DNA from: Myxococcus xanthus
GTDB taxonomy: Bacteria > Myxococcota > Myxococcia > Myxococcales > Myxococcaceae
Reading direction: 5' to 3'
Length of the DNA: 64,000 bases
Assembly (NCBI RefSeq): GCF_900106535.1
Contig: NZ_FNOH01000003.1
Coordinates: forward strand, 620,001 to 684,000
Under the pieces are notes generated by a model that was not told the DNA's origin, searched no databases, and saw only the letters and a list, made by a program, of their open reading frames with translations. The position numbers and the translations under genes are program-made. Of the stretch, positions 51,193 to 64,000 are shown in pieces (position 1 is the stretch's first letter; each line of letters starts with the position of its first letter).

Positions 51193-54123
51193 TCACCCGT
51201 CTGGCAGCCGTGCCTTCGCCACCGGCCCCAGCTCCACGCGGAGCGCCTGTGCGAAAGCATCTGGCAGAGGCTTCAGGGGGTCATCCGCCAAGCCGTACTC
51301 CTCGATGCGGGGCGCCGCCCCCAGGAGGAACTCCAGCCAGCGCTCCCGCAGCCGAACCGTTCGCTCCAGGCGCTCGTCGATGGTGTTGGCAATCAACGGA
51401 AGGTGAACGTCCAGGGTGGTGTCCGGCTGTCGCGCGCGAAGCCGCTGGACGAGCGAGCCCAGCCGGTCGACGCGACCCACGCGCTGCTCGAGCTGTGCGG
51501 GGTTCCACGCCAGGTCGTGATGAACCACCCGACGGCAGTGATGATGCAGGTCCAGCCCCTCCTGCATGACCTCGTTGGCCACGAGGACCATCGGGTACAG
51601 TGGCGTGTTGAAGGCCTCGCGGAGCCGCTCCCGGCTCTCGCCCTCCACGGTGTGGCGGACGAGCGCCCCCGCGCGAACCGCATCATCGAGCACTTCGCGC
51701 CGCCGCTCCTCGTCGAGCTTCCCCGCATAGATCAGGAAGCGCTTCAGCAACTCGAACCAGGGCCGTCCCCGAGGCGTGGTCCAGAAGCGGTCCACCACCG
51801 ACGACAGCGCCCGGGACTCCACCGCCTCCACGTCAACGCCCTGCTCCTTCGCGAATGCCAGCAGCTCCGGAAGGAAGGGGACATTGCGAGCGACGAGGTA
51901 GCTGGCGAGCCGCTCGACGGTGCGGACCCGCAGCTCGGGAGGTACCTCGAACAGGGCACCCTTGAGGTAGGACCAGAGATGCTCGCGGCGAAGCACGAGG
52001 GCCGCGTCCCCTGCGTCAATCGTCCAGGAAGGCGTCCTGTCTCCCTCGGCGGAGTCCTCGACGTCGTCGGCGACGAGATCGAAGCCGAGCGCCACGAAGC
52101 GCGCGTCCGTCAGGCGCCTCAACACCTCCGGGTCGACATCCCCCGCCAATACTCCGTCTCGCACGAAGAGGGCCACGGCCTGCTCGACACAGCGTTTGAC
52201 CAGGGACCAGTCCATCCGCTCCGCTTGCGTCTTCGAAACGCGTTGCTGGCGCAGGAGGCCGTTCGCCCGCTCGATGACGAGTTCAAGGTGGGCCCCCTCC
52301 ACCACGACGCCCTCCAACAGCGTACCGGTATACCGCTCTCGCAGCGCGAGGTAGAGCGCATCCTGGGCGCGGCCGAACCGATCACGCAGGCGAGAGTGAT
52401 GTCCATCCACCCGCTTGCCGTCCAGCTCGTGCTCGAAGATGTCGCCGTGGCTCGCGGCCGGAAACACCTTCCTCCATCGCTCCAGCAAGTGATGCTCCCA
52501 TTCCGCCTCGATTCTCCGCTTCAGTTCACGGAGCGTCTCGATGCGGGCGCAGAAGATGAGCGTCTTCTCGTCGCGGGCGACAGCCTCCAGCGCGTCCCGC
52601 ACGACGTGGTCCACCTTCGGGTGCCCCCCCTGCTCCACGCGCAGTTCCCCCACCACGCTCCGCAAGAGCCCGCGGTAGGCCTCGGCGTCGCCGTCGGGCA
52701 GGGCCTGCCGCTCACTGGAGAGCAGCGCCCCCTCGCGCGCGGCCCCATAGGAGGAGACCATGTTGATCTGAACCGCCGCCTTATGAGTGCGGCTCTTCCC
52801 CCGGAAGAGCTCCGCGATGAACCGCTCGTAAAGCATGAAGGGAACGCCCGCCCCACCCTGGGCCCGCAGTCGGGGGCGGTGGCTCCTGCGGTAGACACGC
52901 TTGTCCTCCCGGAGGCTCCGAATCATCCACCGCCGGAAGCCCGGCTCGATGCGCTCCGTCTTCAGGGACAGCAACCGGCGCGCGCACAGGACCACCGCCC
53001 GCAGGGACGCATCTGCCGGCTCCTCCACCAGCTGGGGGTCCCTGGCAAACAACGCGCCGAAGTCCGAGACGACGGCCTCGTCCGCTTGTGACCAGACGCG
53101 CTCAAGCTCGTTATAGGCCTGCTTGTAGTCCCCCACGTCGTCCAACAATCGCTGGGCCTGCTCCATCAGGTCCGCAGGCGCGGACCGGGCCAGGGCGAAG
53201 AGCGAGAGCACTTGCTTGAGCTCGTCGACAGAGAGCTGAAACGGCGTGGCCGTGAGGAACAGCGCCTTGTCGAAGCGCCCCTCGAAAACAGTGCGCACCC
53301 CGGTGGCCCGTACCGAGTCCACGTTCTTCAGCTTATGGGCCTCGTCAACGATGAGCAGGTCGAAGTCGGGGATGAGCTGCCCGACCAGACGAAAGCGCAG
53401 GTCCATCAGCGCATCATCGACCCACCTCTGGTTCGCGAAGCCGTCGTACTCCTCGCTTTTCCAGAGCGCGTCGAGTGAGCCCTCTCCCGCGCGCTGTTTG
53501 TGTCTTTTCAATGCCTCTCGGACATGGGGTCTGATGACCGACCACTCGAAGGTATCGAGGAACGCCTGCTGCTCGACGTCCACGCGCGCCACCGCGCCCT
53601 CCCGGTAGCGACGAAAGATGGCCGCCACCTGATTGCCGGCGAGCCCCTGTGCATCCGCCCACAACGAAAGCAGCCAGGCCTGGTCCGCCAAGGAGCGACT
53701 TCCCGCGAAGATGTTCACGGGCGCGATGGTGATTCGCGTCTCGCGAGTGGCCGCGACCAGCTCAGCCAGGGTGCTCGCGGTCTTGGACTGACCCGCGAAG
53801 CCCCGGTACATGGGGCGGCTGGTGTCACAGAAGGCACGCAGCTCCTTGGACCACTTCGTATTGAGGTCGGGCCCCGGGGTGAGAATCAGCGCCCGGGCAT
53901 CCGGCAGCACATGCAACCGGGCCGCAAGGACGCCGAGCGCCTCATACGTCTTCCCCATTCCCACTTCATCCGCCAGCACAACTCCTGGCTGATCATCGAA
54001 CAGCTCCAGCGCGCGGAGGACGGTGTCCTCCTGTCGCTCGATGTCACGCAGGGGCACCGTCGAATCAGCCCGTGCATCCAGATGCAGGAAGCTCCGCAAC
54101 CACGTCCGCTCACGTCTTTCCAT
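51193..54123 (-). CDS. SNF2-type helicase of a three-gene cassette
   Basis: A 976-residue superfamily 2 ATPase. Motif I is VVLADEVGMGKTYEA (GMGKT 55-59), motif II is IVDEAH (DEAH 260-263) and motif III is LFLTATP. After a very long middle insert (~400-800), the second RecA core has the TLIFC strand and motif VI in LEQRVGRVDRLGS (~880-890). It is a DNA translocase/helicase rather than a specific known restriction subunit. It overlaps the PLD-family gene by 14 bases and ends the cassette. SNF2-type motors with PLD proteins are found in DISARM and related defence loci. Confidence 0.88.
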   Translation of the reverse strand: MERRERTWLRSFLHLDARADSTVPLRDIERQEDTVLRALELFDDQPGVVLADEVGMGKTYEALGVLAARLHVLPDARALILTPGPDLNTKWSKELRAFCDTSRPMYRGFAGQSKTASTLAELVAATRETRITIAPVNIFAGSRSLADQAWLLSLWADAQGLAGNQVAAIFRRYREGAVARVDVEQQAFLDTFEWSVIRPHVREALKRHKQRAGEGSLDALWKSEEYDGFANQRWVDDALMDLRFRLVGQLIPDFDLLIVDEAHKLKNVDSVRATGVRTVFEGRFDKALFLTATPFQLSVDELKQVLSLFALARSAPADLMEQAQRLLDDVGDYKQAYNELERVWSQADEAVVSDFGALFARDPQLVEEPADASLRAVVLCARRLLSLKTERIEPGFRRWMIRSLREDKRVYRRSHRPRLRAQGGAGVPFMLYERFIAELFRGKSRTHKAAVQINMVSSYGAAREGALLSSERQALPDGDAEAYRGLLRSVVGELRVEQGGHPKVDHVVRDALEAVARDEKTLIFCARIETLRELKRRIEAEWEHHLLERWRKVFPAASHGDIFEHELDGKRVDGHHSRLRDRFGRAQDALYLALRERYTGTLLEGVVVEGAHLELVIERANGLLRQQRVSKTQAERMDWSLVKRCVEQAVALFVRDGVLAGDVDPEVLRRLTDARFVALGFDLVADDVEDSAEGDRTPSWTIDAGDAALVLRREHLWSYLKGALFEVPPELRVRTVERLASYLVARNVPFLPELLAFAKEQGVDVEAVESRALSSVVDRFWTTPRGRPWFELLKRFLIYAGKLDEERRREVLDDAVRAGALVRHTVEGESRERLREAFNTPLYPMVLVANEVMQEGLDLHHHCRRVVHHDLAWNPAQLEQRVGRVDRLGSLVQRLRARQPDTTLDVHLPLIANTIDERLERTVRLRERWLEFLLGAAPRIEEYGLADDPLKPLPDAFAQALRVELGPVAKARLPDG

Positions 54124-56305
54124 GGGTGCCCTCAAGCCCGTAGAAACGAACGACACCGTCCAGCCACCCGGCACCTCGCGGTCGCAGCCGCGTCAAGTCC
54201 GCGCGCAGCAGGGTCCGCAGCTCCGCGAGCAGCGCCTGCTTCGCCTCCAGATCCGCGCTCTCGGGCAACACGAGCTGCTCCAGCTCTCGAAGCAGCTCGC
54301 AGCCGTAGACCCAGATTTCGTCATCGGACACGGAATCCCGAGGCAAGTCGCGCAGCCGCTCCCAGAGCGTCCGGGCCCCCGTCGGCCCCAACAACCGATA
54401 ACGAAACGCGGAGACCGTCGATGCGGCGAGCAAATCCTCCTTCAGCCCCCACCAGGCCTTGAAGACGTCCGTGGGGCCAAAGCCCTCGCCAAATACGGAG
54501 TCCAGGACGGAGTCGACCCCCGCCACGCCGCGCTGCTCGCGAAGGGTCGACAACCGCTCCGCGCCCACACGCCGCGCCAACAGCGCCAGCAACTCCCGGA
54601 CTCCCAGGCCCGCGAGATGAGCACTCGTGGGCAGCATCGCGAGGTCCGCGACGCGGATGGGAACAAGCCACGACCGTCCCGCCGCGCGGAACTCCAGCTC
54701 GGCTCCCGCCGCGGCCAGATCGAAGTCGGAGAGTACCACCGGACCCGAGCGCGGCCCCACGCCCTTCGCCAGTTCCCTGTCCAGGTACCACCAGGCCCAG
54801 CCCCCCAGTCCCCCTGGCCCCTGCTGACTCCAGGTGACGGTCAATGTGCGAGCGGCCGCGTCATGGACGACGTCCTCGAGCCACGCCGAGAAGTCGACCT
54901 CGGCCCCGGGCGCATCTCGCTCCTCGAAGCGCGCTGACTCGAAGGGCGCGCACACCAGCGAGGGCAGCATTTCCGACAAGCGCACCTCTCCGTCCAGGCA
55001 GAGCAGAACGCCCGCCTCGACGTTGCCACCCTGCTCCACCCCACACGAAAGCGCGGCGGCGGAGGCGTTGGCGGACCCGATGAGCGCATAGGTCAGCGTC
55101 CTGCCTGCGGTCGTCACCGTCAGCAGGAAGAGCTTGGCATGCAGGGGGCGTCGGCTCGCGCGCCCGGCAGGTGTCAGCGTCGCCGTTGGATGGAGCCAGA
55201 GTTGGATCTCGTGCTCGCGGACGATGCGCTCGAGGATTCGCCTCGGCGCATGGACCGTCGGCGGCTCCACGGGCCACATCCGCCCCTCCGCGACTTCATG
55301 CTCGAATGCGTCTCTCTCGTACCGTCCAGGCCGCCCGGAGCCGAGCTGGATCTCGACACGCTTCGCCGTGACGCGGTTGACCCCAAAGTACTCCAGGCGC
55401 TCGATGTCCTCGCCGTCGACTGACTCGCGATAACGCGAGGCCCACAGCCGCCCTTCGCCCTCCGCGAGCACGGGCGTTCCCCCGCCATAGGGAGGGGCGA
55501 GTGGTGCGTCCTCCCATGGCACGCCAAGGTCCAGCGGCGGCGGACTCCCGGGGCGAAGCGCGAGCAACTCGGAGAGCACCGACGCGAGCCCCGTCGTGTC
55601 ATTCGCGATGTCGAGGTCATCCAGTTCGAAGAACGGGGACAGGATGCCCACACGAGTGACTCGCGCGTCCTCCGGGAGCGCCTCTCTCAGATGATCGAGC
55701 ATGGACGCGCTGAAGGTGTCCACGAAGAGCGCATCCGTCGGCGCCTGGCCGCTGGGAAACGGCGTGTCGGAGATTCTTGCCGCGAGCGCGGAGCGGACCA
55801 GCGTCAACTGGGTGCCCGGGTGGGTCGCGAGCGCCGCGCAGCTTCTGAGGAACCTGTCTACGTTCCGTAGGAACGCCGCGTCGGCGGGGACGTCGTAGCG
55901 CAACGTGCGCGTGAAGAAGAGTTCGGCGTTCTGCTCGTGGCCCGGCCTGGTGGCATTGCCCGAGCCCACGGCGACGCGCGCCTCCCCGTCGTACAGCACC
56001 AGGATGACCTTCGGGTGGAACGTCCGCTCCCGGATGAGCTGGAGGTCATACGGCAGGCGACGGCCTCCCCGGCGGACACGCGCGTCGACGAAGCAAGCCA
56101 CCGGTGTCTCGCGCAGCGCCGCGCGGGCCTCCTCATGGTAGCGGACAGCCTCCTCCTCCGGGTCCCCCTGCAGGCGCAGCAATGCACGCAGGATGCGGTC
56201 CTCGAAATAGGAAGGGTCGAATGTATAGGAGCAAAAGACGGCTCCCAGGCAGGGTTGCTCGGAGACGAGGACCTGCTCGATGAGCCTCCGGGATTCGATC
56301 ATCAT
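54110..56305 (-). CDS. PLD-family nuclease-like protein
   Basis: A 731-residue protein with two HKD-type phosphodiesterase sites. Site 1 is RTFHPKVILVLYDGEARVAVGSGNAT (H97, K99) and site 2 is PLHAKLFLL, then ALIGSANAS (H389, K391), so both catalytic pairs are present. It begins with an MMIESRRLIEQVL helix, and the long C-terminal half (~430-731) has no match I recognise. Bacterial PLD proteins of this kind cut DNA (BfiI-like) or act as DrmC-type accessory nucleases. It overlaps the upstream gene by 4 bases and the helicase by 14. Confidence 0.85.
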   Translation of the reverse strand: MMIESRRLIEQVLVSEQPCLGAVFCSYTFDPSYFEDRILRALLRLQGDPEEEAVRYHEEARAALRETPVACFVDARVRRGGRRLPYDLQLIRERTFHPKVILVLYDGEARVAVGSGNATRPGHEQNAELFFTRTLRYDVPADAAFLRNVDRFLRSCAALATHPGTQLTLVRSALAARISDTPFPSGQAPTDALFVDTFSASMLDHLREALPEDARVTRVGILSPFFELDDLDIANDTTGLASVLSELLALRPGSPPPLDLGVPWEDAPLAPPYGGGTPVLAEGEGRLWASRYRESVDGEDIERLEYFGVNRVTAKRVEIQLGSGRPGRYERDAFEHEVAEGRMWPVEPPTVHAPRRILERIVREHEIQLWLHPTATLTPAGRASRRPLHAKLFLLTVTTAGRTLTYALIGSANASAAALSCGVEQGGNVEAGVLLCLDGEVRLSEMLPSLVCAPFESARFEERDAPGAEVDFSAWLEDVVHDAAARTLTVTWSQQGPGGLGGWAWWYLDRELAKGVGPRSGPVVLSDFDLAAAGAELEFRAAGRSWLVPIRVADLAMLPTSAHLAGLGVRELLALLARRVGAERLSTLREQRGVAGVDSVLDSVFGEGFGPTDVFKAWWGLKEDLLAASTVSAFRYRLLGPTGARTLWERLRDLPRDSVSDDEIWVYGCELLRELEQLVLPESADLEAKQALLAELRTLLRADLTRLRPRGAGWLDGVVRFYGLEGTHGKT

Positions 56306-57705
56306 GCGGCACCTTCCAGAACATCCAGCTCCCGGCTCATGGGCAGCCGTCCCAGGTCCGTCAGCAACGTGCGGACCACATCCAGCTTGAACGAGGGGAA
56401 GCGTGCCGACTCTGGCCGTGCGGTGTAGGACGTGACGATGAGCACGAGCTTGCCGGCCTCGTTGCGAATCCAGCCTTCGCCGCGTCGCCGCTCGCGCTGT
56501 ACATTGGAGTGATAGAGCAGCAACAGGTCTAGCGCCGCGAGTGAATCCGCGTCCACCAGCGCCTCGACCAATCGAAGAAAAGCGGCGCCATGCATGGGCA
56601 GTCGCCGGATCGCACCGACCCTCGGCGAGGACAGCAGCGCCGCGCATGCGCCCTTCAGCGCCCCAAGTGTCTCCGCATCGAGGGCCTCGCGTCCGATGCG
56701 CTCGCGGGGAGCGACCCAACCGGCGCCATCCAGACAGGAATAGACCCGGTCGAAGGCCCCGACGAGTCCCTGCATCACCTCACCGAAGCGGCGCGCCGTC
56801 AGCAGGAGCGCCAGCAGCTCATCCGAGAGCCGTCCCAGCCGGCCCGCCAGCGCAGCGTCGAGGATGTCTCGCGGAGCAGCGACCCCGGCCTTCGCTGCCG
56901 ACTCGACCAACTGGCTCATCGCGAACGAGTGCGGGTCCCGTGCGTGCACGAAGAGGGCCTCGAACAACCGGTGCTGCTGGGCGGTGCGTCCGCGCTCGAC
57001 CAGGGAGCTCAGACGGCTGAACCGCCCCACCTGAGCCAACGTCAGCCGCCCGTGAACCCGCGCGATGCTCGTCGACTTCCTGTCCAGCGCCACCAGCGCG
57101 TACTCCTCGTATCGCCCCCGGTGTTTGTTCTCCGAGGGCTCGTCCCAGAACGCATCGATGAGCGCCAGCGCGCCCGGGCCCGGCCGCAGGGAACCCTCGA
57201 TGACGAGCCCAGAGCGCCGCAGCGGTGCCAGGTAGGCCCCCAGGTTTCCCAGCTCCTGCTGACGCGAGATGAGCTGGAAGTCGAGCGGCAGGCTCGACGC
57301 ACCTGAGCGCCACGCATTTCGCGCACCTCGCACGCCCCGCATGGAATCCCAATCGCCCCGAGGAAGCTGGCCCTCACGGAACTCCAGCGTGGCCAGGGCC
57401 CAGAAGCGCTCCCAACGCTCGAAGAGTTCTCGCCGAACCTCGTCCGTCGCGGGGTAGGAATGGTGCTCGATGGCCCGCTCCACGAGCTGCAATCCATAGA
57501 GCACCATCGCGTAGGCCTGGGCCCTGCTGGAGCGGGTCGTCAGCGTGGGCAACCCCCAGAGCCCCACCTGCTGCGAGACATAGTCGAGCGCGAGCGGGTC
57601 TTCGGAGGTCAGCTCGGGATTCTCCGCGGGCGGCGCCACCCAGCAGAGGGCATCGGCGGGACTCTTCAGCGGCGTGAGCGTGGGCATGCACGCGCAGGCT
57701 CGCAT
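56302..57705 (-). CDS. Unknown protein opening the helicase/PLD cassette
   Basis: I do not recognise this 467-residue protein. There is no signal peptide or membrane helix. It is mainly alpha-helical with an early GLWGLPTLTTRSSRAQAYA segment, a winged-helix-like middle (QQELGNLGAYLAPLRRSGLVIEGSL) and a basic C-terminal part (SNVQRERRRGEGWIRNEAGKL) that could bind nucleic acid. ATG 57705 is used; ATG 57687 is in frame, and neither has a clear ribosome site. Its stop is coupled to the PLD gene (ATGA). A 16-bp palindrome lies 31 bases upstream, so this is the start of the operon. It may be the sensor or specificity subunit. Confidence 0.8.
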   Translation of the reverse strand: MRACACMPTLTPLKSPADALCWVAPPAENPELTSEDPLALDYVSQQVGLWGLPTLTTRSSRAQAYAMVLYGLQLVERAIEHHSYPATDEVRRELFERWERFWALATLEFREGQLPRGDWDSMRGVRGARNAWRSGASSLPLDFQLISRQQELGNLGAYLAPLRRSGLVIEGSLRPGPGALALIDAFWDEPSENKHRGRYEEYALVALDRKSTSIARVHGRLTLAQVGRFSRLSSLVERGRTAQQHRLFEALFVHARDPHSFAMSQLVESAAKAGVAAPRDILDAALAGRLGRLSDELLALLLTARRFGEVMQGLVGAFDRVYSCLDGAGWVAPRERIGREALDAETLGALKGACAALLSSPRVGAIRRLPMHGAAFLRLVEALVDADSLAALDLLLLYHSNVQRERRRGEGWIRNEAGKLVLIVTSYTARPESARFPSFKLDVVRTLLTDLGRLPMSRELDVLEGAA

Positions 57706-57751: not shown

Positions 57752-57872
57752 TGGCCAGCGTGTCATTGGGGACCTCTCTGGCCCATGACGCAGTGGCTCA
57801 TGACAAGGCTTCTGAAAGCCGTGTCTTGAAAATGTCCCAGCTCTCCGAGAGCCAAAGCTGCCACTACCCACA

Positions 57873-58093
57873 GTGAACAAACCTCATCCATCCAACGTCA
57901 CGCACCCCATCTTCGCGTTCCTGCGTGACCACGCCACCTTCGAGCAGATGCGGGAGTTCACCTGCTGGAGCACACCACGGTCGACATGGAGCACGCCAAC
58001 GAGAGCCATGCGCCCGTCTGGCACCAAGCATTCTGGGTCATGACGCACGGCATTGCCTTGCAGTCCTTCCACGGAGTGGTCGCGACTGTCTGA
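57873..58093 (+). pseudogene. Decayed short gene between the cassette and the peptide locus
   Basis: GTG 57873 begins a protein-like stretch (NKPHPSNVTHPIFAFLRDHATFEQMREFT) which loses sense near 57965. A second frame then reads EHTTVDMEHANESHAPVW and ITHG-type segments to a TGA at 58091-58093. The layout suggests a frameshift plus internal deletion. The N-terminal part faintly resembles iron-binding haem-oxygenase-like proteins (FxxFLRxHxTxEQ), but this is weak. The rest of 57706-57872 holds the cassette's upstream palindrome and no gene. Confidence 0.4.
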
Positions 58094-58107
58094 TAATGTA
58101 GACGGCC

Positions 58108-58728
58108 ATGAGCCTCATTGAACGACTGCGGGACTCACGACGCCATGAAGAACGGCCGTCCCAAAAGGCTTCGCGAGCGGCCCGGACATCGAGCGCCGCA
58201 CCTCGCCCCACCGTCAATCGAGACCTCCGCACGCAACTGCTACGGCTGGACCGCATCGACAGCACCTTGCGTTCTGCGTGGGTGGCGACGGAGTTCAAGG
58301 ACCGTGCTCTTGAACGCAAGCTCAATGCGCTCACCGAGGCGGGCATCGACTGGCTGCGTGAGACGATCAAGGTCCACGGCTGGCCCGGGCATCGCCTCGT
58401 GGGCCGAAGCGGGGCCGCGGCCGCCTGGCGGCTGATTCAACACGCCGACTGCTCGCTGGCCTTCCAGAAACGCTGCCTGAAGTTGCTGCGGGACGCGGCG
58501 GCGCGCGCCGACGTTCCCATCCAGCAGGTGGCCTACCTCACGGACGTGGTGCGCATGCGAGAGGGGAAGAAGCAGCTTTATGGAACGAAGTTCCGCAAGG
58601 TGAAGGGAGAGCTCGTCCCCTACCCCATCGAGAAGGAGGCCGGCGTCGACTTGCGCAGGAAGGAGATGAACCTGCCGTCGCTCGCCGCCTATGCGCGGAA
58701 GATTCGCCGCACATTCCAACCTTCGTGA
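58108..58728 (+). CDS. DUF6624-family protein
   Basis: A 206-residue protein of the DUF6624 type. After a basic, disordered N-terminus (1-45), the core has LTEAGIDWLRETIKVHGWPGHRLVGRSGAAAAWRLIQHAD, CSLAFQKRCLKLL, AYLTDVVRM, LYGTKF and a final YPIEKEAGVDLRRKEMNLPSLAAYA, all in family order. The biochemical role of DUF6624 is unknown. It is the first gene of a rightward run with two JmjC proteins and a short peptide. Its stop is 11 bases before the next ATG, so they are one operon. Confidence 0.85.
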   Translation: MSLIERLRDSRRHEERPSQKASRAARTSSAAPRPTVNRDLRTQLLRLDRIDSTLRSAWVATEFKDRALERKLNALTEAGIDWLRETIKVHGWPGHRLVGRSGAAAAWRLIQHADCSLAFQKRCLKLLRDAAARADVPIQQVAYLTDVVRMREGKKQLYGTKFRKVKGELVPYPIEKEAGVDLRRKEMNLPSLAAYARKIRRTFQPS

Positions 58729-58739
58729 CGGGAGCCGCC

Positions 58740-59984
58740 ATGCACCGCGCCTTCGATTGGCAGCCTTTCGTGAAGCAACACTGGGAGAAGGCACCCGCGC
58801 GCCTGGCACTGCCCGGCCCCATCCTCCCCGTCGACCAGGTCTTCCAGGCCGCGATCTCCGCCTGTGCCCCCTTCCGCCACGGGACGCGGTTTCGCGCCCT
58901 TCCCGACGCGCGCTTCTTCGTGGAGGCCGCCAGGCTCGCCGCCCCGGGAACGCTCCTCCCGGGTGAAGACGACGCGTCCCTGGAGTCGTTCTCGCGCCGC
59001 GCCTCCAAGCACCTGGACGGCGCATCCTTCCAGCTCCACGTCGAACAACCGTTCATGTTCGACTTCGCCCTCTGGAGCGCCTTGCGAGACTTCCTCAGGG
59101 GGCTCCTGGAGCGCGTGGGCGTCCCGGTGCTGCCCATGGCCACCGACCTGTTGCTGGGCCGCTTCTCACGAGGCCCTTACGGCATCGCGAAGCGGCCCCA
59201 CCATTCGCTGGTGACGCTGGTGCTCCAGGGCCGGCTGCGCGTCCGGCTCTGGAAGAAGCTCTGGGGCTCGCCCCCCAACGAAACCGAGGACTTCGACCGC
59301 CACCTGGACAAGGCCACCACCCTGGAGGCCGGTCCCGGTGAGCTGCTCTACAGCCCCTCTCGCTACTGGCAGCTCGAAGAAGCCCAGGGGGACTGCATGG
59401 CCGTCCGGGTATGGATTCCCGTCAAGGGGAGCCGGCCCACGGACGCGGCCAAGGACGTGCTCGTGGGGCTCCTCGAAGCGCGGCACGCGCACGATGAGCG
59501 TGTGCCCTACCACCCCTACCCCTGGCGCCGGCCGCGCAGGGGCGCGCAGGCAACCATTCCATCCGTCGAGCAGGCCGCGGATACGCTCCACGCGCTGACT
59601 CGGGAAGAAGACGTTCAGCAGGTCCTGCGCCTCATCTGGGCCCGGAGGGTCAGCGCTTGCGCGCTCGAGCCCGTGCCGCCGCCGGACCAGGCCCCACCCC
59701 TGTCAGACCCCGACCGGGTGAGGAAGACGCCGACCGTGGACATCATCCGGATGAAGGACCCTTCGGGGCTGTGGATCTGGGCCGTCAACGGACATGCCTT
59801 CCCCGGCCCCAACGAGGCCCTGGGACAGCGGCTCATCAACGCACTGTCCTCGGAAGCGCCGCCTTGCGTCGGTGAGCTGTGCAAACTGGCTCGCCCCGGT
59901 CCGCAGCGAGAGGCCAGTCGCGCCACGCTGGCGGCGCTCCTCCGGCTGCGCGGGATTCACGTCATCACCGGAGCGGAGGCCTGA
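58740..59984 (+). CDS. JmjC/cupin-like protein lacking iron ligands
   Basis: A 414-residue protein, tandem paralogue of the next gene. A ROX/JmjC-type jelly roll (~90-240) is followed by a shared C-terminal winged-helix-like module (~325-410: WIWAVNGHAFPGPNEALGQRLINAL). At the place of the iron motif HxD it has GIAKRPHH, with the His and Asp replaced by Ala and Arg. The distal His of YYHVG is replaced in RYWQLEE. It is therefore probably not an oxygenase but may bind substrate or the active paralogue. ATG 58740 is chosen with GGGAG upstream. It lies 3 bases before the next gene. Confidence 0.8.
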   Translation: MHRAFDWQPFVKQHWEKAPARLALPGPILPVDQVFQAAISACAPFRHGTRFRALPDARFFVEAARLAAPGTLLPGEDDASLESFSRRASKHLDGASFQLHVEQPFMFDFALWSALRDFLRGLLERVGVPVLPMATDLLLGRFSRGPYGIAKRPHHSLVTLVLQGRLRVRLWKKLWGSPPNETEDFDRHLDKATTLEAGPGELLYSPSRYWQLEEAQGDCMAVRVWIPVKGSRPTDAAKDVLVGLLEARHAHDERVPYHPYPWRRPRRGAQATIPSVEQAADTLHALTREEDVQQVLRLIWARRVSACALEPVPPPDQAPPLSDPDRVRKTPTVDIIRMKDPSGLWIWAVNGHAFPGPNEALGQRLINALSSEAPPCVGELCKLARPGPQREASRATLAALLRLRGIHVITGAEA

Positions 59985-59987
59985 CGG

Positions 59988-61316
59988 ATGCCCACCTTGG
60001 AAATCGCGACCCGCTTCGACTGGGACACCTTCGTCAGGCGCTACTGGAACCAGCGCCCCGTGCTCTTCAAGGGAACACAGGCCTCCCCCTTCACCGTCGA
60101 CGACGTCTTCGAGGCATCGGCCGGCGCCACCCAGCGCTACCTGTCCCGCAGCTACGAGCCGGCGTCACGGCCCGACGTCACCTTCACGGTGGACCGGCTG
60201 CGGCAGCTCCGCTCCCGGGAGTGGCTGCCCAGAAAGTCCGATGGCTCCCTGGACGGGTATGACGCCCGCATCGCCTCGCAACTGGGCGAGCGCCGCTACG
60301 CCCTCATCATCGCCACGATGCACGCCTCCGGCTTCCAGCTCTGGTCACGGCAACGCGCCTTCTTCTCCGGCCTGTGGCAGCGCGTGGGCATGCCCGTGAC
60401 GGGCGGCATCACCTCGCTGTTCCATGGGACCTACGAGCACAGCCCCGTGGGAGTCCACCTGGACCGCTTCACCACGTTCATGTTCGCGCTGCGCGGACGC
60501 AAGCGGATGCGCTTCTGGCACAAGCGGCCGTGGAGCGAGGACGTCTCCACCATCCTGGACTACCAGCCCTACCTGGCGTCGTCCTTCGTCGCGGAGGTCG
60601 AGCCCGGCGACATCCTCTACTGGCCCTCCACGTACTACCACGTGGGCGAGAGCGCCGGCGCAGGCGTGGCCAGCAGCCTGAATGTCGGCATCCCCATCAC
60701 CGAGCACCACGTCATCTATTCCGTGGACGACCTGCTGCGCGGGATGCTCGACGAGACGTCGCTCGCCGACCAGGAGTGGAAGCAGACGCGGCTCGCGCGG
60801 GTATCGGCCTCGCCCCTGGCCCGCGGTGCCCTCTCGAAGAACGGTGTCCTGGCCACGGAGCTGCCCCGGGCGCTCACCGAAGCCGTGCGCGCGTTTCGCG
60901 ATGTCAGCCACCCGAAAGAGGCGCGACGGCACATCCAATCCACCTGGCTCAAGCGGTTGACCTCGGGAGGCTTCGAGCCCGTGCCACCGCCCACCCGTGA
61001 AAAGCCTTTGCGTGACTCACACCACGTGCGGGTGGACCCGAGCTTCCCCGTCCTCTTCGAACGAGACAGCGCCACACGGTGGATTTGTTCCGCCAACGGC
61101 CATGCCCTGCGCGGCGCGGGTGGTGGACGCGCCATTGAAATATTCTTCCGAAAGCTGAACTCCGGCGCGGCTGTAAGCGTCGAGGAGTTGCTGAGCCCGT
61201 TTGGGACACGGCGCGCTGCGAGACATGATTCAGAAGTCATCGCCGCAACGCGTGAAGGAATGCGTGGCGTCCTGAAAAAACTTCACGCAGTTCGCGCAAT
61301 CACTCTCAGCGCTTGA
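59988..61316 (+). CDS. JmjC/ROX-type 2-oxoglutarate oxygenase
   Basis: A 442-residue protein with the ribosomal-oxygenase (YcfD/MINA-like) layout: the start DWDTFVRRYWNQRPVLFKG, a JmjC jelly roll with iron ligands H157 and D159 (GVHLDRFTTFMFAL) and H218 (STYYHVGES), and a C-terminal winged-helix-like module. The enzyme should hydroxylate a peptide or protein side chain using Fe(II), oxygen and 2-oxoglutarate. With a short precursor-like peptide gene 61 bp downstream, the peptide is the obvious candidate substrate. It is a paralogue of the gene before it. Confidence 0.88.
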   Translation: MPTLEIATRFDWDTFVRRYWNQRPVLFKGTQASPFTVDDVFEASAGATQRYLSRSYEPASRPDVTFTVDRLRQLRSREWLPRKSDGSLDGYDARIASQLGERRYALIIATMHASGFQLWSRQRAFFSGLWQRVGMPVTGGITSLFHGTYEHSPVGVHLDRFTTFMFALRGRKRMRFWHKRPWSEDVSTILDYQPYLASSFVAEVEPGDILYWPSTYYHVGESAGAGVASSLNVGIPITEHHVIYSVDDLLRGMLDETSLADQEWKQTRLARVSASPLARGALSKNGVLATELPRALTEAVRAFRDVSHPKEARRHIQSTWLKRLTSGGFEPVPPPTREKPLRDSHHVRVDPSFPVLFERDSATRWICSANGHALRGAGGGRAIEIFFRKLNSGAAVSVEELLSPFGTRRAARHDSEVIAATREGMRGVLKKLHAVRAITLSA

Positions 61317-61377
61317 CGCATCCGCCGTCAGCGCCCAGGCTTGGCCAGCAGTCCACATCCATCGATGGAGGAGTGTC

Positions 61378-61530
61378 ATGACGAAGACGAAGGCGAAGGC
61401 CCCCCAATCGTCCAAGCAGACCAAGCAGAAGCTCGTAAAGCTGATGAACGTCATGGAGAAGGCCACGGTTCCCGCTGCCACGACGGCCATGAACCTGACC
61501 TGCAGGCGCATCTACTGCTCCCCCTACTGA
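61378..61530 (+). CDS. 50-residue candidate RiPP precursor peptide
   Basis: A small gene with a perfect GGAGGAG ribosome site 6 bases before its ATG. The product has a Lys/Thr/Gln-rich N-terminal half (MTKTKAKAPQSSKQTKQKL), an amphipathic middle (VKLMNVMEKATVPAATTAM) and a distinct C-terminal tail C42-R-R-I-Y-C47-S-P-Y50. A leader/core layout with residues suited to modification (Arg, Tyr, Cys, Pro) fits a ribosomally made, modified peptide. It follows the JmjC pair and DUF6624 gene and is itself followed by a strong hairpin. It is too short for most gene finders. A small basic regulatory protein is the alternative. Confidence 0.7.
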   Translation: MTKTKAKAPQSSKQTKQKLVKLMNVMEKATVPAATTAMNLTCRRIYCSPY

Positions 61531-61536
61531 TGGCCT

Positions 61537-61566
61537 CGGGCCGCTGGGCATCGTCCCAGCGGCCCG
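61537..61566 (+). terminator. 12-bp perfect hairpin directly after the peptide gene
   Basis: CGGGCCGCTGGG (61537-61548) and CCCAGCGGCCCG (61555-61566) form a perfect stem with a 6-base loop, starting 6 bases after the TGA of the peptide. CTTCCC follows, with no U-run. Precursor genes in RiPP operons often carry such a hairpin to stabilise or end their message so that peptide exceeds enzymes. Confidence 0.75.
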
Positions 61567-61674
61567 CTTCCCAACCTGCGCAGTGTGCCTCGCAGAACCG
61601 ATGTAAGGCATTCTGGAGCATGCAGCCCCCCTCACTATCCTGTCACCCTCCTGGATCTCCCGTGGAGCCGTGAC

Positions 61675-63075
61675 ATGAAAAGCGCTGTCGACCTGCAGGG
61701 CAACCCACTGAGCGACATCTCCCTCGCCGCGATGCGGCGATGGCTCCTCGAAGCCGATGTGCTGGGCTACCTGCCACAGATTGCCGCCACGGAGTCTGAA
61801 GGCCGCCTCTGGACGTACTACGGGTTCGGCGTCCGGCGCATCGATGCGTTCGTCCGCGCGAACGGGTACGCGGCCCTCGACGACGCCACCCTCCTCACCG
61901 ATGACCTGGACGCCATCGTGGCGCTGCGGGAGTTCATGGCCGCCGCGCCCCCGCTCATCGACGGCCGCCGGAGGCTCGTGGAGCAGCTTCGCGCCTTCGC
62001 CGCGGAACGGGACGCGCTGGACCAGGGCCGTCCGCTCACTGCGCACGAGCTGTTCTCCCTCTGGTACCTGAAGGCCGTTCCGGGCGCCTACATGGCGCAG
62101 CGGCTCCAGCTCGCGGACGTGGACGAAGCCACGGTGCGGCGCATCGCGAAGCTCTCCGCCGTGGGACTGCAGATGTTCGACGACGGGGTGGACCTCCAGG
62201 CGGATCTCGACCGGGGGCGCTTGTGGTTGAGCGCGGAGGAGCTCGAGCTGCTGGGACTGTCCATGACGCCGCCCGCGACGCTGGCCACCACCGCGGGGGA
62301 GCGCATCATCCGGCTGCGCAAGGCCATCTGCCTCGAGTACTTCCTCGCGGTGTATGACGAAGCCTCTCGCATCGCCTCGCCGGAGAGTCGCAAGCGCGCC
62401 CAGTCCTTCGCGGAGGCCTGGCTGAGCTTCCTCCAGCAGGACTACCTCAAGCTGTACACGCCCGGAGACCCCAAGCCCTGGGACTCCGTGCAGCGCGTCC
62501 TGAAGGCGCTGCCAGGCTCGGAGACCGTGAAGCTGCCCGTGCTGCACTCGCTGTTCTCCCTCATCTCCGCCCTGCCGCTTCCGCCCGTGGACGTGGAGGC
62601 CTGCCGGCGGGAGCTGCAACAGCTCGGGGGCTGCCCTCGGGCGCTGGCGCCAGAAGTGGCCCTGGACGCCATGGGTGTCTGCGAGGCGGAGGGAGACGCG
62701 GCGAACTTCGACGTGCCCGGGCCGGAGGCCTCCGTGCTGGAGCGCGTGCTGCTGGCCTCGCCCTCCAAGCACACCGCGGCGGACTTCGCGCGGCGCTGCC
62801 GCGAATCAACCGAGGGCTCTCCGTCCAACCTGCGCGACCCCAACCTGTCGGAGGTGTTCGCCAGCGGCATCAAGCTCGCGGAGCGCTCCGCGCGGAACTC
62901 CGTCACCGCCCGGGAGAACTTCCTCCAGCAGCTTCGCCCTGGCTCAAAGCGGGCCCCGGTGGTGGACGCCGAGCTGGCCGAGCGGTTCTCGCGCGACGGC
63001 GCGGACTGGCTCGCGTTGGGAATCGAGGCCCTCGCGGCGACGGCCCGCGGGGTCCGCGACGGCTGCCGGAAATAG
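61675..63075 (+). CDS. Squalene/phytoene-synthase-like helical protein
   Basis: A 466-residue, signal-free helical protein. Residues ~125-200 align with the second half of phytoene/squalene synthases: WYLKAVPGAYMAQRL, the helix GLQMFDDGVDLQADLDRGRLWLSAEELELLGLS matching LQLTNILRDVxEDxxRGRxYLP, then RLRKAICLEYFLAVYDEAS. In the second aspartate motif D173 and D177 are kept but the Asn, Arg and Glu are changed. TDDLD at 75-79 could be the first motif. The last ~170 residues are unique. Catalysis as a normal head-to-head synthase is doubtful. GGAG precedes ATG 61675. The 145-bp gap after the peptide holds its hairpin. Confidence 0.55.
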   Translation: MKSAVDLQGNPLSDISLAAMRRWLLEADVLGYLPQIAATESEGRLWTYYGFGVRRIDAFVRANGYAALDDATLLTDDLDAIVALREFMAAAPPLIDGRRRLVEQLRAFAAERDALDQGRPLTAHELFSLWYLKAVPGAYMAQRLQLADVDEATVRRIAKLSAVGLQMFDDGVDLQADLDRGRLWLSAEELELLGLSMTPPATLATTAGERIIRLRKAICLEYFLAVYDEASRIASPESRKRAQSFAEAWLSFLQQDYLKLYTPGDPKPWDSVQRVLKALPGSETVKLPVLHSLFSLISALPLPPVDVEACRRELQQLGGCPRALAPEVALDAMGVCEAEGDAANFDVPGPEASVLERVLLASPSKHTAADFARRCRESTEGSPSNLRDPNLSEVFASGIKLAERSARNSVTARENFLQQLRPGSKRAPVVDAELAERFSRDGADWLALGIEALAATARGVRDGCRK

Positions 63076-63105
63076 AACCTCTGTCCCTCACCTCATCCAT
63101 CATCA

Positions 63106-63894
63106 ATGAATCCTGAATCCAGCATCGCGGCGGCCGAGTCCCCCTGGCTCGTCCGCCGCAAACCCCAGGCGTCGCCTCGTCTCCGGCTGTTCTGCTTCCC
63201 CTACGCGGGAGCCGGCAGCCTTCCCTACTTCCGTTGGCCTGACCTGCTCCCCGAGGCGGACATCGAGGTGTGCGCAGTGCAGCCTCCCGGCCGGGAGAAC
63301 CGCCTGCATGAGCCGTCCGTGGAGGAGCTCCCACAACTGCTGGACGCGCTCGTGCGGGAGCTGTCGCCCCTCTTCGATGGCCCCTTTGCCTTCTTCGGCC
63401 ACAGCCTGGGCGCGCTCATCGCCTTCGAGCTGACGCGCGAACTCCGCCGCCGGGGCCTTCCGCTGCCTGGCACCCTGCTCGTCTCCGGCTCCGAGGCGCC
63501 CTCCCGGCGCAGTGGACTTCCCCCACTGAGCGGCCTGCGGCGAGACGACTTCATCCGCGAGCTGTCCGCTCGCTACGACGGCATTCCGCAGCAGGTCCTG
63601 GCGCAGCCGGAGATCCTGGACCTCATCCTCCCCATCCTGCGCGCCGACCTGAAGATTTCAGAGCGCTACACCTACCAGGAGGAGCCTCCGCTTCCAGTGC
63701 GGCTGTGTGCCTTCGGTGGCACTCGCGACCCTCGCGTCTCGGAAGCCGCGCTCGACACGTGGCGACTGCAAACACAGCAGTCCTTCTCGATGAAGATGTT
63801 TCCAGGCGGCCACTTCTTTCTCAACGAGCTGACGGCCCAGGTGGTCCAGGCCGTCCATGCCGAACTCGCAGTCGGAGCAACCCCAGCACCATGA
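63106..63894 (+). CDS. Type II thioesterase
   Basis: A 262-residue alpha/beta hydrolase of the GrsT/RifR type that clears stalled or mis-loaded carrier proteins in polyketide/peptide assembly lines. The family start RLFCFPYAGAGSLPYFRWP, the nucleophile elbow GHSLGALIA, LFGGTRDPRVS-like acid region (AFGGTRDPRV) and the final catalytic His in FPGGHFFLNE are all present. Its stop overlaps the start of a carrier protein (ATGA), so it opens or belongs to an assembly-line cluster that continues beyond the window. Confidence 0.93.
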   Translation: MNPESSIAAAESPWLVRRKPQASPRLRLFCFPYAGAGSLPYFRWPDLLPEADIEVCAVQPPGRENRLHEPSVEELPQLLDALVRELSPLFDGPFAFFGHSLGALIAFELTRELRRRGLPLPGTLLVSGSEAPSRRSGLPPLSGLRRDDFIRELSARYDGIPQQVLAQPEILDLILPILRADLKISERYTYQEEPPLPVRLCAFGGTRDPRVSEAALDTWRLQTQQSFSMKMFPGGHFFLNELTAQVVQAVHAELAVGATPAP

Positions 63895-64000
63895 ACAGAG
63901 ACGACCTGCTCGATGTCCTGACCCGCTATGTCGCGAATGAACTCCTGGACGGGGACGCGGAGGACCTCGATTCCTCCACGCCCCTCTTGGAGCTCGGCGT
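63891..64000 (+). CDS. Carrier protein, N-terminal part (acyl/peptidyl carrier)
   Basis: The first 36 codons of a small carrier: MNRDDLLDVLTRYVANELL, then EDLDSSTPLLELGV, the helix I and loop pattern that ends just before the phosphopantetheine Ser (expected a few residues past the window edge). It is coupled to the thioesterase. In M. xanthus I recall the DKxanthene cluster lying a short distance from the aib operon and including a stand-alone carrier, so this may be its start; that is recall and inference. Confidence 0.78.
   Translation, partial: MNRDDLLDVLTRYVANELLDGDAEDLDSSTPLLELG

Follow-up and report, generated by a model that had tools for sequence, protein, structure and literature searches.

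The 64,000-nt stretch of Myxococcus xanthus DNA analysed here (the window) carries on its + strand, at 58108-61530, a unit of four genes for a DUF6624 protein, two JmjC-family proteins (JmjC-A and JmjC-B) and a 50-aa peptide. We regard this unit as one of two operons for precursors of a hitherto undescribed family of ribosomally synthesized and post-translationally modified peptides (RiPPs), probably with enzymes shared between the loci (probability about 0.78), and the 50-aa peptide as its likely precursor. That the four genes form one unit had been proposed in a sequence-only reading of the window, and the open reading frames (ORFs) confirm it with overlapping or near-touching starts and stops. 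The start codon of JmjC-A lies inside the stop codon of the DUF6624 gene (GTGA), 3 nt separate JmjC-A from JmjC-B and 61 nt separate JmjC-B from the peptide gene.

The genome of the window (G000) contains, on a different contig (G000:C12), one more JmjC pair, followed by a peptide gene of the same kind (L006:8830-8973). The window and 36 neighbourhoods were scanned for short, Lys-rich ORFs to build a peptide family, and its profile was then searched against 96 Myxococcaceae genomes. Nineteen matches with E-values of 2.7e-19 or lower were found in 12 of these genomes, and the next-best match (E 0.0039) lies within an 851-aa frame. All 19 peptide genes are located just downstream of a JmjC-A/JmjC-B pair, and no peptide without adjoining JmjC genes was found among the 96 genomes, an arrangement that the sequence-only reading had named as one that would speak against it. 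The collection genome_contigs yielded one further locus, L005 (Myxococcus vastator); L005 and G075:C762 were counted once. The short ORF with its ribosome site, first picked out from the window by itself, is therefore a conserved gene that stands beside the JmjC genes in relatives, and a GGAG ribosome site precedes it in 19/19 loci.

When the 19 peptides (47-51 aa) were aligned, ten columns were invariant, namely K7, S12, K13, Q14, K18, L19 and K28 in the leader and C42, Y46 and C47 in the tail. The window peptide consists of a Lys-rich leader (about residues 1-32), a variable linker and the tail T-C-R-R-I-Y-C-S-P-Y; the Lys-rich leader is probably helical. The tails follow the pattern [S/T]-C-x(1,2)-[R/K]-x(0,2)-Y-C, with Ser or Thr directly before the first Cys in every peptide and a basic residue between the two Cys that is Arg in 18 peptides and Lys in one. 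Adjacent Arg residues, which had been taken as the signal for hydroxylation, occur in the window's own peptide only (1/19), and what is conserved is a single basic residue. As is general for RiPPs, an encoded precursor with a conserved leader and a distinct tail is found next to modifying-enzyme genes at all 19 loci.

The peptide ORF evolves as a coding frame. BLOSUM similarity in this frame was compared with a redistribution null, for which pairs with fewer than six differences were dropped (20 of 21 pairs were used in each of the window-type and C12-type groups, named after the two loci of the window's genome). The mean z was 3.1 for window-type, 3.4 for single-locus and 1.8 for C12-type peptides; between groups it was 3.6 and 3.8, with values of -1.2 to 1.3 in the five other frames. 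An open frame by itself was not taken as evidence because other frames are stop-free as well (13 of 14 tested sequences in the +2 frame, 14 of 14 in one antisense frame). The leader half of the C12-type gene (L006:8830-8916 and six relatives) is conserved at synonymous sites, with 0.067 synonymous differences per synonymous site (Sd/S) compared to 0.28-0.29 in the rest. Such conservation, together with mild selection on the peptide (ratio of nonsynonymous to synonymous change, pN/pS, 0.51 in the window type and 0.85 in the C12 type), would suit an untranslated ORF whose conservation reflects an RNA or DNA element. We consider this very improbable, since the similarity is specific to the coding frame (mean z 1.8-3.8 in that frame only), the amino-acid profile holds at E-values of 2.7e-19 or lower across DNA of 63 % identity, and the ribosome site is present in 19/19 loci. 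The pattern of synonymous change that the sequence-only reading had expected of an untranslated ORF was thus not seen.

Among the 12 peptide-bearing genomes, five have one five-gene locus each (G004, G025, G034, G055 and G071) and seven have two loci each (G000, G060, G063, G067, G075, G076 and G077). In the two-locus genomes, the window-type locus has the DUF6624 gene and no DUF4135 gene, and the C12-type locus has the DUF4135 gene and no DUF6624 gene. These two loci are more than 4 Mb apart in the single-contig genomes G060, G063 and G077 and are on different contigs in the other four. By crude gene clustering, the only genes common to different locus types were those for DUF6624, JmjC-A, JmjC-B and DUF4135. 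The five-gene loci branch both with the window type and with the C12 type in the JmjC trees, which is most simply explained by an ancestor with all five genes, a duplication or transfer, and then reciprocal loss. As each locus of the two-locus genomes has lost one accessory gene, DUF6624 and the dehydratase may be shared in trans; from the gene content, we give about even odds that the accessory enzymes serve both precursors.

DUF4135, the dehydratase domain of LanM-type enzymes, is encoded by the next gene after the peptide in 12/19 loci, which strengthens the RiPP interpretation. All four proteins tested were above the Pfam cut-off (E-values of 5e-14 to 3e-20), and a close homologue occurs once each in exactly the 12 peptide-bearing genomes of the 96. 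Beyond these, DUF4135 gave a 38-aa match in G057, and full LanM proteins of five genomes were matched weakly. When the DUF4135 proteins were aligned with the full LanM proteins L101 and L104 of the same genus, 10/10 rows spanned the dehydratase part and ended before the LanC part. In LanM, the Lys of YKPR, D-x-H..N, DLE and R...T are functional residues. None of the ten DUF4135 rows has lost the Lys of YKPR, the D....N pair or the D-[LM]-E motif, and all ten have an Arg with Thr (4 rows) or Ser (6 rows) six residues on. The protein is a divergent, cyclase-less relative of LanM dehydratases and may be an active one; we lean slightly towards activity on these peptides. Ser/Thr and Cys are present in the core as in class II lanthipeptides, with [S/T]-C...C in 19/19 peptides. 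A LanM with both dehydratase and LanC, which would define that class, was not found in these loci, where the DUF4135 part stands by itself and is missing at the window locus. Cyclase domains (LanC or class III) and YcaO are likewise absent from these peptide loci. The claim that no standard RiPP enzyme is present holds at the window locus itself and fails for the genome, in which a LanM-type dehydratase adjoins the second copy.

The two JmjC proteins share 29 % identity over most of their length (E 1.3e-39). The iron site of JmjC oxygenases is formed by an H-x-D/E...H motif; as H-x-D...H it is retained by JmjC-B in 19/19 loci and by 21/21 other JmjC relatives compared (the relative in G074, L056, was missed by the crude gene caller and is outside all JmjC motif counts). 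In JmjC-A, both the His and the Asp of H-x-D are lost in 19/19 loci, which leaves it without the iron site of a JmjC oxygenase, and the column of the distal His is occupied by His in 7/19 and Gln in 12/19. JmjC-A matched no Pfam family at E≤1. It is related in sequence to the JmjC oxygenases and, to judge from its motif, is not a canonical enzyme. Since H-x-D is present in every JmjC-B and lost from every JmjC-A, the pair is probably an enzyme and a degenerate twin (a pseudoenzyme) that are conserved together, and not the two ribosomal-oxygenase (ROX)-type enzymes first proposed. The 19 JmjC-A rows form one clade, and the JmjC-B rows likewise (support 100/100 each). The solved structures nearest to a joint JmjC profile are ribosomal protein L16 arginine hydroxylases (4lit, E 3.3e-7). 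At E≤1e-15, JmjC-B relatives were confined to the window's own family, in 35 of 195 genomes of the phylum (best eight candidates per genome). An AlphaFold2 model of JmjC-B from a two-row alignment (window and L005) had a mean predicted local distance difference test score (pLDDT) of 36, with 60-80 in a C-terminal part of helices and short strands.

A close homologue of the DUF6624 protein (58-100 % identical) is also found exactly once in each of the 12 peptide-bearing genomes of the 96. Elsewhere, DUF6624 is represented by a separate subfamily of about 32-44 % identity in other genomes and by two partial matches. In the window protein the conserved part begins at about residue 36, and its true start codon is uncertain. 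A sequence search for a solved relative gave chance-level matches only, and an AlphaFold2 model from the same two rows had a mean pLDDT of 52.

Distant relatives of the JmjC proteins adjoin YcaO/TfuA, ATP-grasp, LanB and radical-SAM enzymes, which strengthens the RiPP interpretation further; the association is not universal, as some are near nonribosomal peptide synthetase (NRPS) genes instead. At locus L048 (G043:C11:163001-183000), two JmjC proteins are beside YcaO and TfuA, and a third is beside a double-Gly-leader peptide, an ATP-grasp maturase and a full LanB. Locus L049 (G057:C13:1000-20500) combines a JmjC protein with an rSAM_ocin_1 C-methyltransferase, a SPASM radical-SAM protein and a 67-aa Lys-rich peptide that has ICECCINVD at its C-terminus. 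These peptides of other kinds near JmjC relatives in L048 and L049 are outside every peptide count given here. A further JmjC group (L057, L064 and similar loci) is located near TldD/PmbA-family genes (two members tested) and a Rieske protein.

Published work, as far as the available text of these papers goes, adds to this interpretation by placing JmjC and DUF6624 proteins in RiPP clusters. The biphenomycin precursor is hydroxylated at Orn by the JmjC protein BipG (PMC12707348). Folds resembling the RiPP recognition element (RRE) are fused to PF08007, and the closest bacterial PF08007 homologues are in RiPP-like contexts (PMC12710340). DUF6624 is frequent in graspetide groups 18, 20, 23 and 42, of which group 18 is also oxygenase-rich, and may, according to the same paper, represent an as yet undiscovered class of biosynthetic enzymes (PMC13097080). 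No paper recognised as describing this JmjC-pair peptide family was found in our literature search, whose coverage largely left out subscription papers and bioRxiv.

When the unit was compared with known systems, biphenomycin-type clusters (BipG/BpmG, PbsQ) were alike in having a JmjC/cupin-like iron/2-oxoglutarate enzyme beside a precursor with a basic side chain as target, the target being a putative one here. They differ in their MNIO, arginase and B12 radical-SAM partners and in the single JmjC protein described in the available text (PMC12707348, PMC12257519), whereas the present family has a JmjC pair of one active-type and one degenerate member, DUF6624, a LanM-type dehydratase and another type of precursor. 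In class II lanthipeptides (LanM) and dehydrazoles (LanMbC, CcaM), DUF4135 likewise adjoins a precursor that contains Ser/Thr and Cys (PMC10676384, available text), but LanC, class III cyclase domain and YcaO are missing from the loci studied here and the window locus is also without DUF4135. Graspetide clusters contain DUF6624 at high frequency (PMC13097080, available text); in contrast, no ATP-grasp family was among the Pfam matches of our unit and the window tail has no Asp or Glu, so that the unit does not fall among the graspetides. YcfD/RoxA (the L16 Arg hydroxylase), MINA53 and NO66 belong to the same JmjC_2 family, share H-x-D...H with JmjC-B and are its best solved relatives. ROX proteins are generally dimers with a C-terminal, RRE-like winged helix. 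Unlike these ribosomal oxygenases, JmjC-B is encoded in an operon with a precursor-like peptide and a degenerate twin.

In the mechanism that we propose, JmjC-A and JmjC-B would work as a heterodimer. JmjC-A, its iron site lost, may bind or present the leader, as PF08007 proteins can carry an RRE-like domain. JmjC-B, predicted to be an Fe(II)/2-oxoglutarate oxygenase with the L16 arginine hydroxylase as its nearest solved relative, would hydroxylate the basic residue of the tail or the neighbouring Tyr. The LanM-type dehydratase would phosphorylate the Ser/Thr before the first Cys and then eliminate it; in the window's genome it would be supplied from the second copy on the other contig. DUF6624 may be a further enzyme or a partner in the pathway. 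Taken as a whole, a new RiPP class with JmjC-A as leader-binding scaffold, tail hydroxylation by JmjC-B, a cyclase-less LanM dehydratase and two split operons that share enzymes for a two-peptide product is a tentative proposal. For the single step of hydroxylation, the basic residue and any other target seem evenly balanced. Arg specificity is not forced by the tails, because the basic residue is Lys in one of 19 and shifted by one position in two, whereas the Tyr and both Cys are invariant in 19/19. It is thus quite conceivable, at somewhat less than even odds, that the product is a RiPP in which JmjC-B acts on the Tyr, another tail residue or a dehydrated residue and JmjC-A is structural only. 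In the available text of PMC12707348, substrates containing Arg were not modified by BipG, which acted on Orn; this fits such a target. On the other side, the closest solved JmjC relatives are arginine hydroxylases, and ycfD and JMJD5 are known examples of Arg hydroxylation by JmjC proteins (PMC5862942, available text).

An unlikely alternative to a RiPP is that the Lys-rich peptide is not a natural-product precursor but a small protein that has a regulatory role or binds the ribosome, and that an enzyme akin to ribosomal oxygenases modifies it. The relation of JmjC-B to ribosomal oxygenases and the likeness of the Lys-rich N-terminal half to ribosomal protein tails would be in line with this, as would the fact that neither the unit nor its conserved neighbours included a recognisable protease or exporter (by crude gene clustering, with no search for distant enzymes). 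However, such a protein would not be expected to show the patchy presence and whole-unit deletions (see below), the LanM-type dehydratase domain that adjoins the peptide in 12/19 loci, or the distant JmjC relatives in RiPP contexts. The RiPP interpretation of the sequence-only reading is accordingly kept in part: the conserved precursor, the dehydratase neighbour and the RiPP contexts speak for it, and its paired oxygenases and adjacent Arg residues have been given up.

In addition to the missing protease and exporter and the variable basic residue, several observations weigh against the interpretation of the unit as one of two RiPP operons with shared enzymes. The His of D-x-H is replaced in 9/10 DUF4135 rows, and the DUF4135 proteins score 22-48 bits against the NCBIfam LanM model, which has a cut-off of 304, and match no solved structure. 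JmjC-A retains one candidate metal ligand, the distal His, in 7/19 loci. The tree program warns that the long JmjC-A and JmjC-B branches meet, and their sister relation may be false; some inner branches behind the reciprocal-loss scheme have support of 83-94. The AlphaFold models, at the mean pLDDT values given above, are too poor to judge the fold or an RRE-like domain. Selection on the peptide is mild, with a pN/pS of 1.02 in the C12-type leader, and the third positions of its gene vary little more than the others. Sharing in trans is something that we infer from gene content, and the two natural deletions described below may go back to one ancestral loss.

Table 1 Features of the four-gene unit and its 3' flank (window positions)
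Feature	Position	Strand	Basis
DUF6624 protein, first gene of the unit	58108..58728	+	Pfam PF20329, E 9.6e-18
JmjC-A, JmjC-family protein, H-x-D metal motif absent, probable pseudoenzyme partner	58725..59984	+	29 % identity to JmjC-B
JmjC-B, predicted JmjC oxygenase, H157-x-D159 and H218 (window numbering)	59988..61316	+	PF08007 JmjC_2, E 1.8e-7
Ribosome-binding region of the peptide gene, GGAGGAG	61363..61374	+	sequence; GGAG in 19/19 relatives
50-aa precursor peptide candidate	61378..61530	+	19 homologues, 10 invariant columns
Hairpin with perfect 11-bp stem, directly 3' of the peptide stop codon	61538..61565	+	sequence; terminator-like, T-run absent

A stable hairpin (-25.5 to -30.8 kcal/mol per 45 nt) follows the peptide gene in 7/7 window-type loci. 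Hairpin energy alone is not diagnostic, because two loci in which DUF4135 comes next fold nearly as well (-26.6 and -27.4 kcal/mol). The window hairpin was absent from the list of a consensus terminator scan, and a consensus promoter scan found no promoter.

The units are gained and lost whole. G066 is without window positions 57754-61555, and its flanks (93 % and 96 % identical) are rejoined with 53 nt between them. G078 retains 61158-61354 (197 bp, the end of JmjC-B and following bases) fused to 61527, which is four bases short of the peptide gene's end; other genes separate this remnant from its upstream flank, at a distance of several kb. Both genomes also have a deletion at the second locus, of L006 6166-10792 (to 10816 in G066), with flanks of 97-98 % identity. 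This deletion removes both JmjC genes, the peptide gene and most of the DUF4135 gene, of which scraps of the end remain.

From 61585 to 64000 and on into L007, the window encodes an SQS/PSY-like protein and a thioesterase; together with a large multi-domain gene of the opposite strand, these form a separate cluster. The SQS/PSY label is a weak one and comes from a single orthologue (L041, E 1.5e-4, below the Pfam cut-off); the window's own copy matched no family searched. That the four genes belong to this SQS/PSY-like, thioesterase and NRPS cluster was considered, as the start of the next gene is adjacent and co-oriented and the two sets occur together in 7 genomes. We rejected it and hold it to be highly improbable: G066 and G078, both of the same genus, keep this cluster, including its SQS/PSY-like and NRPS genes, with conserved DNA running through the SQS/PSY-like gene into the thioesterase gene, and do not have the unit. 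The cluster is also absent at 12/19 peptide loci, and the hairpin lies 3' of the peptide gene. The unit is therefore taken as the four genes without their downstream neighbours.

JmjC and DUF6624 proteins are only beginning to be recognised in RiPP clusters, and in this compact conserved system, present in 12 species, both are tied to a single small precursor. The natural deletions and the split, complementary loci provide a test bed for the role of DUF6624, for an H-x-D-less JmjC protein beside an intact one, and for a LanM-type dehydratase without cyclase on a putatively hydroxylated, Cys-framed tail. If the interpretation is true, seven species divide the pathway between two unlinked operons, with one shared set of enzymes that matures two precursors.

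On the other side of the unit, a row of genes on the - strand (51193-57705) encodes a helicase (best PADLOC match PDC-M27C, E 1.8e-56), a PLD-like protein (ZacB, E 3.2e-15) and a 467-aa protein without a match. This row may encode an anti-phage defence system of a type such as Zac or PDC-M27.

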